Made by a program: the position numbers and the translations under genes. 25,297 nt of DNA, taken from positions 1 to 25,297 of the IMG/VR virus record IMGVR_UViG_3300030333_007629, one strand, 5' to 3'. Origin of the DNA: a virus. Below, in pieces: positions 2,930 to 13,540 of the stretch; positions within the stretch are counted from its first letter, which is position 1; every line of letters starts with the position of its first letter. The notes under the pieces are model-generated. The model was not told the origin of the DNA, did not search any database, and saw only the letters and a program-made list of their open reading frames with translations.

Positions 2930-2952
2930 ATATCAAGTCAAGAACTTGATAT
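2930..2952. promoter_or_regulatory. perfect inverted repeat, candidate operator
   Basis: The arms ATATCAAGT (2930-2938) and ACTTGATAT (2944-2952) are exact reverse complements around a 5-nt centre. The repeat lies 22 bases before the initiator ATG and just downstream of a plus-strand TATAAT, where a repressor would block initiation. The outer six bases of each arm (ATATCA and TGATAT) match the half-sites of the iterons inside the gene, which suggests that the gene product controls its own transcription. Confidence 0.6.
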
Positions 2953-2974: not shown

Positions 2975-4060
2975 ATGAAAGAGCAATTTACAAAAATAAC
3001 AATTGAAGATTTACATTATTTGAGCAGGTTAGATCGATCAGCGATCCTTTGCTATATTGCCATGCGTATTTATGGAGGCCAGGACCGTCGATCATGGGCT
3101 TCACAGGAACGAATAGCGAAAGATATTGATGTAAGCACGCCAAGCGTCCGGAGGGCGTTTTCAAAGCTTCGCAAGCTTGGCTTTATTACCAAGATCAAAA
3201 AGGGCAATAAAATAACGAGCACACATATCATAAATGACATGTCAAATTTGAGATCTGCAAATATCAAATCTGATATTAAGGACATATCAAATCCGATCAA
3301 AACAGATATCATATCTGATATACAAATAGATAAAGAAAATAATAAACTTAACAATATAATTAATAAATCGGATTCAAGGAGCAAATTAGGATCCATACCT
3401 CAAGAGGACAACCACTATAACCCCAAAGTGGAATCAGAGGACGCTTCTTTTATTGCTATAAATGAGTGCTCTAACGAGCACCAGTTGATTGATGAGCTGG
3501 ATCTATTATTTGAAAAGTTATGGAGTCGGCACAGCGTGCCGATGGGCTGGATTAGTTCGGATCCTTTAAGGGATTTTGCAACAATAAGAAAGGATTTCAC
3601 TAGGATACAAATTGTTAAAGCATTAAAGCTCATTGATTATTTGATTAGAAATAACAAAGTTGGATCTGGAAAATGGAGGGGCCGAAACTGGATTGATGGG
3701 ATGCAATTATGGATATCCCGGCAAAGTGATACCTGGAGTTATTCAGATAGCAAGCGGTTTAAGGATTGCATCCATGTTAGCCCATCTGAAATCGATAAAA
3801 GGAATCGATCAATTCAGGCTAAAATGAAGGAGCAAAAAGATCTAGAAGATATCAAATTAACCGGTTCAAGGGCTCGTGATTTCTGGTCAATGGTGGTCAA
3901 GAATAATGCCACATATGAAGAGAGGTATGCCGCAGTGCTAAAGTCTCGGATTTATCTGGATCCCCTTTTTGTGAGGCAAATAAATGATGATCCAAAGTTA
4001 AATGCGCTTAAATTATTGGTTTCTTTACAGTCTGATTTATATGCAGCCGGAGGTAATTAA
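2975..4060 (+). CDS. replication initiator-like protein (winged helix; lambda O-like layout)
   Basis: A 361-residue protein. Residues about 18-80 read as a winged helix-turn-helix of the replication-initiation type: SQERIAKDIDVSTPSVRRAF, then KLRKLGFITKIKK. Residues about 84-130 are a Lys/Asn/Asp/Ile-rich linker. Residues about 165-265 form a second domain with LFEKLWSRH and WRGRNWIDGMQLWI, and the end is helical and charged. A DNA-binding head, flexible linker and C-terminal partner-binding domain are the layout of phage initiators such as lambda O and DnaD-like replisome organisers. The linker DNA carries iteron-like repeats and an AT-rich stretch, which supports this role. The start has AAAGGA before it. 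Sequence identity to a named family is not obvious, so the role is inferred. Confidence 0.65.
   Translation: MKEQFTKITIEDLHYLSRLDRSAILCYIAMRIYGGQDRRSWASQERIAKDIDVSTPSVRRAFSKLRKLGFITKIKKGNKITSTHIINDMSNLRSANIKSDIKDISNPIKTDIISDIQIDKENNKLNNIINKSDSRSKLGSIPQEDNHYNPKVESEDASFIAINECSNEHQLIDELDLLFEKLWSRHSVPMGWISSDPLRDFATIRKDFTRIQIVKALKLIDYLIRNNKVGSGKWRGRNWIDGMQLWISRQSDTWSYSDSKRFKDCIHVSPSEIDKRNRSIQAKMKEQKDLEDIKLTGSRARDFWSMVVKNNATYEERYAAVLKSRIYLDPLFVRQINDDPKLNALKLLVSLQSDLYAAGGN
3225..3368 (+). other. candidate replication origin: four iterons plus AT-rich stretch inside the initiator gene
   Basis: Four copies of ATATCA-N4-TGATAT-like sites begin at 3225, 3261, 3284 and 3306. The second and fourth are exact at both half-sites; the first ends TGACAT and the third CGATCA. 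The last three are spaced 23 and 22 bases apart, about two helical turns. The third copy lies in a different codon phase from the others, so the likeness is kept at DNA level and is not a protein repeat. From 3322 to 3368 almost every base is A or T, as expected of an unwinding element. Iterons in the linker region followed by AT-rich DNA are the known layout of the lambda origin. Function is inferred. Confidence 0.55.
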
Positions 4061-6440: not shown

Positions 6441-6606
6441 GCATGGTGGCCAACGAAAAAACGCAACTGGAAAAAAAAGCCCAATGGTGAATTTAGTCGT
6501 GCCTGAAGAAATGTTGGTCAAAATAGAGGATATGGCTTGGTCGAATAGGATCACAAAAAGCGAGGCGATTAGACAACTTATTGCGAGAGGATTGAAGAAT
6601 GCCTGA
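6424..6606 (+). CDS. CopG/ribbon-helix-helix-like protein
   Basis: A 60-residue basic protein. Residues 19-58 read SPMVNLVVPEEMLVKIEDMA, then NRITKSEAIRQLIARGL: a strand and two helices in the order of CopG/Arc repressors, with the typical S-E-A-I-R-Q-L-I start of the second helix. AGGAG lies 9 bases before the ATG. The stop overlaps the ParB-like gene by 8 bases, so the two are translationally linked. It may be a phage regulator. The repeated palindromes are possible targets, but this is a guess. Confidence 0.7.
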   Translation: MEKILKHGGQRKNATGKKSPMVNLVVPEEMLVKIEDMAWSNRITKSEAIRQLIARGLKNA

Positions 6607-7099
6607 AAGTGCTGCTATTTGGGAAGACATTAATGAGCTCGTACCATGGGACCAAAACCCAAGAATAAATGATCATGCTGTTCAAAATGTTGCTGATAGC
6701 ATAAAGAGGTTTGGTTTTGCATCGCCAATAGTAGCAAGATTAGCTGATAAAATGGTGATTGCTGGACATACTAGATTAAAGGCAGCAAAGAGTCTTGGAC
6801 TTGATAAAGTGCCGGTCAGATATTTAGATATAGATCCAGCAGATGCAAAAATGTTAGCTCTTGCGGACAATAAAATTGGAGAAATAGCAGATTGGGATCA
6901 AGAAGGATTAATTAACATTCTTAACGATTTAAAAGTTAGTTATGATATATCAGAATTAGGCTTTTCTACACAAGAGCTAGAAAAGCTTTTAGTTGAACCA
7001 AGCACTTATTTTCATGAAGAAGATAAAGAAATAAGTCTTGCTGATTTTGATAATTTTGATCATTGCTGTCCTAGGTGCGGGTTTGAATTTAATGATTAA
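6599..7099 (+). CDS. ParB-like (ParB/Srx fold) protein with C-terminal zinc knuckle
   Basis: A 166-residue protein. Residues 10-90 hold the ParB N-terminal domain: NPR at 20-22, SIKRFGFASPIVA at 34-46 and GHTRLKAAKSLG at 56-67. The family contains CTP- and DNA-binding proteins, and phages often encode a single-domain form next to a DNA methyltransferase or terminase. The end, CCPRCGFEF, offers a C-x2-C zinc-binding pair. There is no helix-turn-helix domain as in plasmid or chromosome ParB and no ParA nearby, so partitioning is unlikely. It overlaps the C5 methyltransferase by 8 bases, so the two probably work together in DNA modification. Confidence 0.85.
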   Translation: MPESAAIWEDINELVPWDQNPRINDHAVQNVADSIKRFGFASPIVARLADKMVIAGHTRLKAAKSLGLDKVPVRYLDIDPADAKMLALADNKIGEIADWDQEGLINILNDLKVSYDISELGFSTQELEKLLVEPSTYFHEEDKEISLADFDNFDHCCPRCGFEFND

Positions 7100-11152: not shown

Positions 11153-11407
11153 ATGAACAATATAAATATCAAAATCCAAATTTTAGAGCTTAAAGACCAG
11201 CTAATGGGTAAAGATATTGGCTGGAATAGTGACGAAGCAAATGAGGCTATTTTAAATGAAGTTAAAGAAGCTTTATATATGGATTTTACTGTTACTGTTG
11301 GTTTTGTTTTAACTTTAAAAGACCAGCTAATGGGTAAAGATATTGGCTGGAATAGTGACGAAGCAAATGAAGCTATTTTAAATGAAATTAAAATTATTCT
11401 AAAATAA
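11153..11407 (+). CDS. hypothetical protein made of two near-identical repeats
   Basis: An 84-residue acidic helical protein. Residues 13-38 and 55-80 are copies of LKDQLMGKDIGWNSDEANEA followed by ILNE(V/I)K, joined by a 17-residue linker that looks hydrophobic (DFTVTVGFVLTL). The DNA copies differ at 2 of 75 bases, so the duplication is very recent. AAAGGAGC lies before the ATG. No family recognised. Its stop lies in the A/T tract of the next module. Confidence 0.65.
   Translation: MNNINIKIQILELKDQLMGKDIGWNSDEANEAILNEVKEALYMDFTVTVGFVLTLKDQLMGKDIGWNSDEANEAILNEIKIILK
11192..11392 (+). repeat. 75-bp direct repeat (two copies) within one gene
   Basis: 11192-11266 and 11318-11392 match at 73 of 75 positions, 126 bases apart and in the same frame. 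The two differences are one silent change (GAG/GAA) and one Val to Ile change. Confidence 0.9.
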
Positions 11408-11484
11408 ATAAATTTAACTGTTTACATCAAGTTATTAACATAGTATAATACTATATAAGAACAAAACAACAAAGGAGCACAAAA
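11401..11484 (+). promoter_or_regulatory. promoter/leader module M4 (TTTACA-17-TATAAT type)
   Basis: TTTACA (11421-11426) and TATAAT (11444-11449) are 17 bases apart, a near-ideal sigma70 promoter. A 15-bp palindrome with arms ATAGTAT and ATACTAT (11440-11454) covers the -10. Next come ATAAGAAC, the CAA leader and AAAGGAGCA. The module is almost the same as M5, with three differences over about 84 bases. Confidence 0.85.
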
Positions 11485-11679
11485 ATGAAACACCAAAATA
11501 ATCCAGTACCATTAGCGGATATTAAATGGACCTATAGTCAAGTACATTCTAAAATGTATTATAAGGGTCTTAGCCTTGATGAGGCATGTAAAGCTGTTGA
11601 AGCAACCTTTGACGGATCTCAGCCTAAAGGTCTTTTTAAAGCTGTAAAATTATACTATAAACACCTACAAAATAAATAA
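11485..11679 (+). CDS. small hypothetical protein
   Basis: A 64-residue basic protein, predicted helical, with the centre KMYYKGLSLDEACKAVEATF and the end LFKAVKLYYKHLQNK. No family recognised. It stands alone as a cassette between two nearly identical promoter modules (M4 before it, M5 over its end). Its stop codon lies in the A/T tract of M5. AAAGGAGC precedes the ATG. Confidence 0.65.
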   Translation: MKHQNNPVPLADIKWTYSQVHSKMYYKGLSLDEACKAVEATFDGSQPKGLFKAVKLYYKHLQNK

Positions 11680-11751
11680 ATTTAACTGTTTACATCAAGT
11701 TGTTAACATAGTATAATAATATATAAGAACAAAACAACAAAGGAGCACAAA
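11669..11751 (+). promoter_or_regulatory. promoter/leader module M5 (TTTACA-17-TATAAT type)
   Basis: TTTACA (11689-11694) and TATAAT (11712-11717) are 17 bases apart. Compared with M4, one change (C to A after the -10) breaks the small palindrome, so the two promoters may differ in control while keeping the same basal strength. The same CAA leader and AAAGGAGCA follow. Confidence 0.85.
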
Positions 11752-11985
11752 ATGGTAATAGCTAGAAAATCAAACGATAAATTAAAATACATGATTATAA
11801 CGGAAGGTTCTAAAATTACATTAATCAGGAAGTGGTTACAAAAAAATCAAATTGTATGTGTATCTCCAAAAGCAAAATCATACATAATAAAAATTTGTAA
11901 AAGACAAAAAGATATTGAAAAAGCCAAAAAGTTAGAGGTTGATGAAATATATGAGTATTTTACTGGATGCATAACACCACAATAA
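11752..11985 (+). CDS. small basic hypothetical protein
   Basis: A 77-residue Lys-rich protein (MVIARKSNDKLKYMIITEGS ...) with a mixed strand and helix pattern and the helix KRQKDIEKAKKLEVDEIYEY near the end. No family recognised. AAAGGAGC lies 8 bases before the ATG. Module M5 drives it and, since no terminator follows, probably also the Rad52/Erf-like gene and those after it up to 13540. Confidence 0.65.
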   Translation: MVIARKSNDKLKYMIITEGSKITLIRKWLQKNQIVCVSPKAKSYIIKICKRQKDIEKAKKLEVDEIYEYFTGCITPQ

Positions 11986-12932: not shown

Positions 12933-13540
12933 TTAACATAGAAAACATCGATTGTATGATACGACTAAAAGAAGCGCCGGATAACTATTGGGATCTGGCT
13001 ATCGTCGACCCGCCATATGGGATTGGTGGCGGGTCCTGCACAACCAAAAAAGTAAATTGGGATGATTCAAAAATTCCAAATAAACAGTATTTCCAGGAAT
13101 TAATAAGAGTCTCTAAAAACCAGATAATATGGGGGGGGAATTATATGTCAGCAAATATCCCCTACCACAGTAAACATACTATTATATGGGATAAACAAAA
13201 TGGCGACTCATTTATGTCTGATGGTGAAATTGCTTTCACTTCATTTAATAAAAACACAACAAAATTTTATCGGCTATTTTGGATGTCTAATATGATGAAA
13301 AAATACGAAAAACCAATAATACATCCAACCCAAAAACCAGTATCTTTATATTTATGGATATTAGAGAACTATGCTAACCATGGTGATAGAATCCTTGATA
13401 CACATCTAGGTAGTGGTTCTATTGCTTTAGCTTGTCACGATATGGGTTTTTATCTAGATGGCTACGAACTAGACGAAGAGTATTATAATGCAGCATTAAA
13501 ACGATTACAAAACCATCAAAGGCAATTAAAATTGTTTTGA
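12929..13540 (+). CDS. DNA N6-adenine (or N4-cytosine) methyltransferase
   Basis: A 203-residue enzyme. Motif IV is DPPYG at 27-31, HPTQKP lies at 132-137, and the S-adenosylmethionine site DTHLGSGS lies at 157-164. Motif IV before motif I is the beta-type order. DPPY is found mostly in adenine methyltransferases, though N4-cytosine is not fully excluded. WGGNY at 68-72 is intact across a G8 run, so that run is not a frameshift. The last five residues, QLKLF, match the QL-x-LF pattern bound by the bacterial sliding clamp. The phage probably methylates its DNA against restriction. The short length, with little target-recognition domain, leaves the target site open. Confidence 0.9.
   Translation: MINIENIDCMIRLKEAPDNYWDLAIVDPPYGIGGGSCTTKKVNWDDSKIPNKQYFQELIRVSKNQIIWGGNYMSANIPYHSKHTIIWDKQNGDSFMSDGEIAFTSFNKNTTKFYRLFWMSNMMKKYEKPIIHPTQKPVSLYLWILENYANHGDRILDTHLGSGSIALACHDMGFYLDGYELDEEYYNAALKRLQNHQRQLKLF

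Follow-up and report, generated by a model that had tools for sequence, protein, structure and literature searches.

In bacteriophage lambda, the replication origin consists of four inverted repeats and ~40 bp of A+T inside the O gene, and this origin-in-initiator layout is found in lambda and the Stx phages alike (PMC7466680, PMC5043065). For phage SPP1, repeats and an AT-rich unwinding element have been described inside initiator gene 38 (gp38/oriL; PMC6316719). The plasmid pSK41 carries its origin in rep, with the origin boxes in the centre of the gene and a linker that is dispensable, while the Rep protein of pPR9 has an N-terminal HTH_36 (pfam13730) domain and, together with its origin, differs from pSK41 as one block of ~500 bp (PMC5703833).

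Here we analyse a 25,297-nucleotide stretch of viral DNA (IMG/VR record IMGVR_UViG_3300030333_007629; hereafter the window), in which the linker of an initiator gene probably constitutes a phage replication origin, lambda-ori-like in build and O-type. We put the probability of this reading at about 0.88. A first-pass annotation of the same DNA had proposed a lambda-like origin within this gene, and the analyses presented below support that interpretation.

Results

The initiator gene and the elements in and around it are arranged as follows (strand given where one applies):

2930..2952: palindrome ATATCAAGTCAAGAACTTGATAT upstream of the initiator, a possible operator, noted from the sequence
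2975..4060, plus strand: initiator gene, 361 aa, with winged helix (wHTH), disordered linker and helical C-terminal domain (ORF, Pfam, PHROG)
3002..3232, plus strand: winged-helix DNA-binding domain, aa 10-86 (AlphaFold2 model; structural matches)
3225..3240: ATATCATAAATGACAT, a repeat outside the phased array and 14 bp from it, 1 mismatch, status uncertain
3239..3254: iteron 1, ATGTCAAATTTGAGAT, 2 mismatches
3261..3276: iteron 2, ATATCAAATCTGATAT, perfect match, 0 mismatches
3284..3299: iteron 3, ATATCAAATCCGATCA, 3 mismatches
3306..3321: iteron 4, ATATCATATCTGATAT, perfect match, 0 mismatches
3251..3478, plus strand: linker, aa 93-168, of low confidence (pLDDT below 50) and presumably disordered; its DNA overlaps the iterons and the AT tract
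3322..3368: AT-rich putative DNA unwinding element, 89% AT, directly after iteron 4
3494..4045, plus strand: helical C-terminal domain, aa 174-357, putative helicase/replisome recruiter, of no recognised family

The initiator protein matches Pfam HTH_36 (PF13730) at 1.3e-7, with 31.7 bits against a curated cut-off of 25, and all 14 members of the initiator family match PF13730 with their N-terminal domains above that cut-off. PHROG families for replication initiation and O-like proteins are matched at 1e-5 to 1e-7, phrog_678 and 391 by all 14 members; the matched initiator profiles include DnaD-like ones. In the AlphaFold2 model, a winged helix (aa 10-86) is followed by a low-confidence linker (93-168) and a helical C-terminal domain (174-357). 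The N-terminal domain of DnaD (2v79; Z 9.2, 99 residues aligned, rmsd 3.6) and 4pql (Z 8.4, 99 aligned, rmsd 4.2) are two among many wHTH proteins that resemble the winged helix in structure comparison. Modelled alone, the C-terminal domain reached a mean pLDDT of 89; sequence searches recognised no family for it, and its best matches in Foldseek (E 2.1) and VIA-align (Z 4.6, 69 aligned, rmsd 3.1) were unconvincing, which does not show that the fold is new. A DnaQ-like exonuclease gene (2386-2877; RNase_T 5.3e-19) is divergent from the initiator, and several relatives have a similar divergent neighbour beside theirs.

The initiator gene contains five ATATCA-N4-TGATAT-like sites, located where the DNA encoding the winged helix ends or just past that point. 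The first-pass annotation had counted four in the linker, three of them about two helical turns apart; place and spacing were correct, and the counts rise to five sites and four phased ones, those at 3239, 3261, 3284 and 3306 following each other at 22, 23 and 22 bp. Measured from the ATG, the sites start at offsets of 250, 264, 286, 309 and 331, corresponding to codon phases of 1,0,1,0,1. Because the phase alternates, the period cannot stem from repetition in the peptide, a conclusion that had been drawn earlier from what was thought to be a single off-phase copy. The AT-rich stretch reported after the sites was recovered as well, positions 3326-3365 (90% AT) being the thermodynamically weakest 40-mer of the gene.

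Both perfect motif matches of the window sit in the repeat region, and six sites with at most 3 mismatches fall inside 100 bp, where simulations never gave more than 4. Given that the motif was derived from the same data, p-values for the clustering of this single motif are descriptive only, and motif-free, protein-preserving tests were therefore used as the fair ones. A gene-wide count of 16-mers with at most 4 mismatches was underpowered and was set aside. A PWM scan of the window revealed no further group of iterons comparable to SPP1 oriR.

In the motif-free test, each lag from 10 to 45 (36 lags) was scored by its best self-match over 66 bases, and the scores were compared with those of synonymous-codon shuffles that leave the protein unchanged. 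For the window gene alone, p was 0.007 at lag 22 and 0.003 at lag 45; family-wise over the 36 lags it was 0.063, which is borderline in this most conservative test. Across nine representative genes, the mean z was 3.97 at lag 22, followed by 2.49 at the double lag of 44. The lag-22 signal was strongest in the relative L058 (z 7.9), followed by L059 (6.1) and L063 (6.0), and L060 was weak in this test (family-wise p 0.32). Lambda O, with its annotated iterons, served as a positive control and yielded lags of 23, 44 and 24 at z 3.0-3.4 (family-wise p 0.074, likewise borderline); its weakest 40-mer lies just after iteron 4. When the larger genes of four genomes were scored at lag 22, the initiators of three relatives ranked at the top (7.3, 4.2 and 4.0), and the window initiator was tied for fourth at 3.0.

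Used as a direct query in viral contigs, phages and plasmids, the initiator protein retrieved no relatives. A capsid search produced 51 loci, many on ~30-kb contigs, and a search of these contigs gave ten initiators with 51% down to 24% identity as well as one weak match; a profile search then added further initiators, so that the overall range extends from 51% down to ~21%. Several contigs measure 30.0-30.7 kb and have different start points, which suggests that they are near-complete permuted genomes; end repeats were not found on the ~30-kb contigs. Searches of bacterial genomes with the capsid or the initiator did not identify a host, and the capsid matched none of the named phages.

All relatives in the main family show the same order of wHTH, repeats, AT tract and C-terminal domain, always with the repeats at the same linker position and with the weakest 40-mer of the gene just downstream of them. 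This recurrence, and the like scores of lambda O in the same tests, bear out the lambda O/ori-like arrangement that the annotation had recognised. The sequence of the repeats differs by subgroup:

ATATCA-type: window, L057, L060
AGTATCGCAGAT: L058, L059
GACATACCAGATC-type: L083
GGGGATCA-type: L061-L065, L088, L093
GAGGAAAAAGTGA: L066

The distant HTH_36 genes L067 (1015-2004) and L080 (1372-2364) have 24-bp repeats in frame, and repetition of DNA and of peptide are not fully separable in them; L081 is without the AT pattern. The L080 sequence GGATCACATGTTAAGCC resembles GGATCATTTCTAAGCC of the L061 group, and GSIKR occurs in the recognition helices of both.

To quantify selection on the DNA beyond the protein, the rate of identical codons at residues shared by two proteins was compared between the linker and the rest of the gene. 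The window and its closest relative, L057, have identical codons at 22/27 such residues in the linker vs 51/141 elsewhere (p 1.4e-5), and the window and L060 at 21/24 vs 32/72 (p 1.7e-4). The corresponding values are 32/34 vs 74/133 for L058-L059, 49/49 vs 133/200 for L061-L062, and 40/44 vs 80/158 for L061-L088. Over the gene pairs compared, synonymous codon conservation amounts to 78-100% in the linker vs 36-74% elsewhere; the first-pass annotation had made its proposal depend on the sites being conserved in relatives beyond the protein, and they are.

The L058-L059 value in part reflects a recent exchange of this segment, and the argument is therefore carried by the window-L057, window-L060 and L061-group pairs. 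L058 and L059 agree at 86% in the N-terminal domain and have the same repeats, with only 31% in the C-terminal domain, whereas L058 and L083 agree at 74% in the C-terminal and 58% in the N-terminal domain and have different repeats. Along these genes, the level of DNA identity switches between +360 and +430, counted from the ATG, which is where the AT tract lies. Since the repeats in L058, L059 and L083 match the likeness of the N-terminal and not of the C-terminal domain, they appear to travel with the winged helix; that repeat type follows the wHTH is a correlation suggested by a few natural recombinants.

Elsewhere in the window, a promoter/ribosome-site cassette, CAATATAATATGTTATTATATTG...AACAAAACAACAAAGGAGCA, is present in seven dispersed copies, each before small ORFs:

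Promoter/ribosome-site cassette copies: 4606, 5913, 11071, 11402, 11670, 15671, 15933

One small ORF holds an 86-nt duplication (11181-11392; 92%), and the region after it a 103-nt duplication (11401-11771; 90%). At the end of an N6/N4 methyltransferase gene, a 28-nt inverted repeat (13504-13562; 86% complementary, 3-nt loop) is possibly a terminator.

Discussion

Repeats within the gene of a winged-helix protein might instead be operators, at which this protein or another regulator represses or roadblocks transcription of the gene, with the origin located elsewhere. Most wHTH proteins are regulators, and the palindrome at 2930-2952 adds a further potential binding site upstream of the gene. 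However, a similar palindrome, TATCAAGTTATTAACTTGATA, lies upstream of the initiator in L058, whose iterons differ from those of the window; the palindrome therefore seems to be a separate element and may serve a different regulator as its operator. Gene repression also leaves unexplained why a weak AT-rich tract is conserved directly downstream of the repeats and why the protein matches O-like initiator profiles, and we consider it improbable. Still less likely, in our view, is a partition centromere of the parS/tubC type, to which either the wHTH protein or the ParB-like product of the gene at 6599-7099 would bind. TubR and the centromere-binding wHTH protein of pNOB8 are among the weak Foldseek matches, and a ParB-like gene is present in the window; yet this gene adjoins a methyltransferase gene, no ParA or TubZ gene was noticed among the annotated ORFs, and initiator profiles combined with an adjoining weak tract suit an origin better.

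It is also conceivable that a repetitive peptide linker and codon bias together gave rise to the repetition, given that the linkers do hold repeated peptides of the Ile-Ser-Asp type and that the distant L067 and L080 genes have their 24-bp repeats in frame. In the main family, however, the period is 22 bp, changes codon phase and survives synonymous shuffling, and it is specifically in the linker that identical residues keep the same codons. Shuffling and codon conservation together refute the peptide reading for the main family, and we give it next to no credence overall.

We favour a replication origin in the linker on account of its layout, its period, the synonymous conservation, the AT tract and the co-segregation of the repeats with the wHTH, features that can be read from the DNA itself. 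If this origin is used in cells, we infer that initiation would begin with the N-terminal winged helix binding the four phased inverted repeats of ~16 bp; given the palindromic sites, it would probably bind as a dimer. The repeat spacing of 22-23 bp corresponds to two helical turns, so that the proteins would be stacked along the same face of the helix, and the resulting nucleoprotein complex could strain and then melt the adjoining AT tract of ~45 bp. At the opened strands, the C-terminal domain would next recruit the replicative helicase of the host or the loader of that helicase, and replication would begin. The protein segment encoded by the repeats would act as a mere flexible linker, leaving the DNA free to evolve for binding.

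Profile searches detected no homologues of DnaB (DnaB_C) or DnaC/IstB in 13 relatives, and no match to lambda P (PF06992) in the window or the 13 relatives, the window covering ~25 of ~30 kb; a divergent loader could also go unseen by the profile. Helicase recruitment is thus left to the host and to a C-terminal domain of no recognisable family. Almost the entire genome has a positive GC skew, and the point at which the skew changes is also where the genes switch strand; GC skew therefore does not help to locate the origin and provides no independent signal for it. One could further speculate that the wHTH and the iterons form one mobile cassette and that C-terminal domains of no known family recruit the host helicase directly, with no phage loader involved. 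We regard this extension as rather doubtful, but if it is true, a single protein would make up a compact initiation system, and the code that links protein to iteron would be readable.

The analysis places the candidate origin of an uncultured phage family within ~130 bp by sequence alone. Both tests, protein-preserving periodicity and synonymous conservation, can be applied to any phage initiator gene, and the periodicity test recovers the pattern of lambda. In addition, the natural swaps of binding domain and repeats against C-terminal domains open two questions to direct testing, namely the specificity between wHTH and iterons and which domain recruits the helicase.

Comparison with known systems

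As in lambda O/ori, the putative origin of the window lies inside the initiator gene, past the part encoding the DNA-binding domain, and it shares with lambda ori four palindromic repeats of ~16-19 bp, a spacing of 20-24 bp and an adjoining A+T tract of ~40 bp. Unlike lambda O, the window initiator has a different repeat sequence and matches HTH_36, Phage_rep_O being absent among the listed Pfam matches of its family; its C-terminal domain has no recognised family, and no P gene was found. The annotation had seen no obvious likeness to O, which agrees with the failure of a direct comparison between the window initiator and lambda O alone but went too far, as the PHROG O-like profiles 678, 391 and 345 match lambda O as well as members of the window family, the latter via the N-terminal region. 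Shared N-terminal ancestry with lambda O is plausible but unproven; given the different Pfam domain and the lack of a detected P gene, we do not file the window initiator under the lambda O family.

Repeats and an AT-rich element inside the initiator gene are also common to the window and SPP1 oriL. SPP1 has its own helicase loader gp39, helicase gp40 and a second origin, none of which was found here, the helicase and loader having been sought in 13 relatives with the DnaB_C and IstB/DnaC profiles. The staphylococcal Rep genes of pPR9 and pSK41 likewise carry origin boxes centrally in the initiator gene, and HTH_36 is common to pPR9 and the window. These two, unlike the window, are plasmids of Gram-positive hosts; RepA_N (PF06970) is missing both from the Pfam hits of the window protein, taken to E up to 1, and from those listed for the 14 members (the first 25 of 30 families), and no DnaD-like C-terminal domain was recognised in the window initiator. 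By analogy, the window origin would work like the origins of lambda, SPP1 and pSK41, and would thereby join a kind that is already known.
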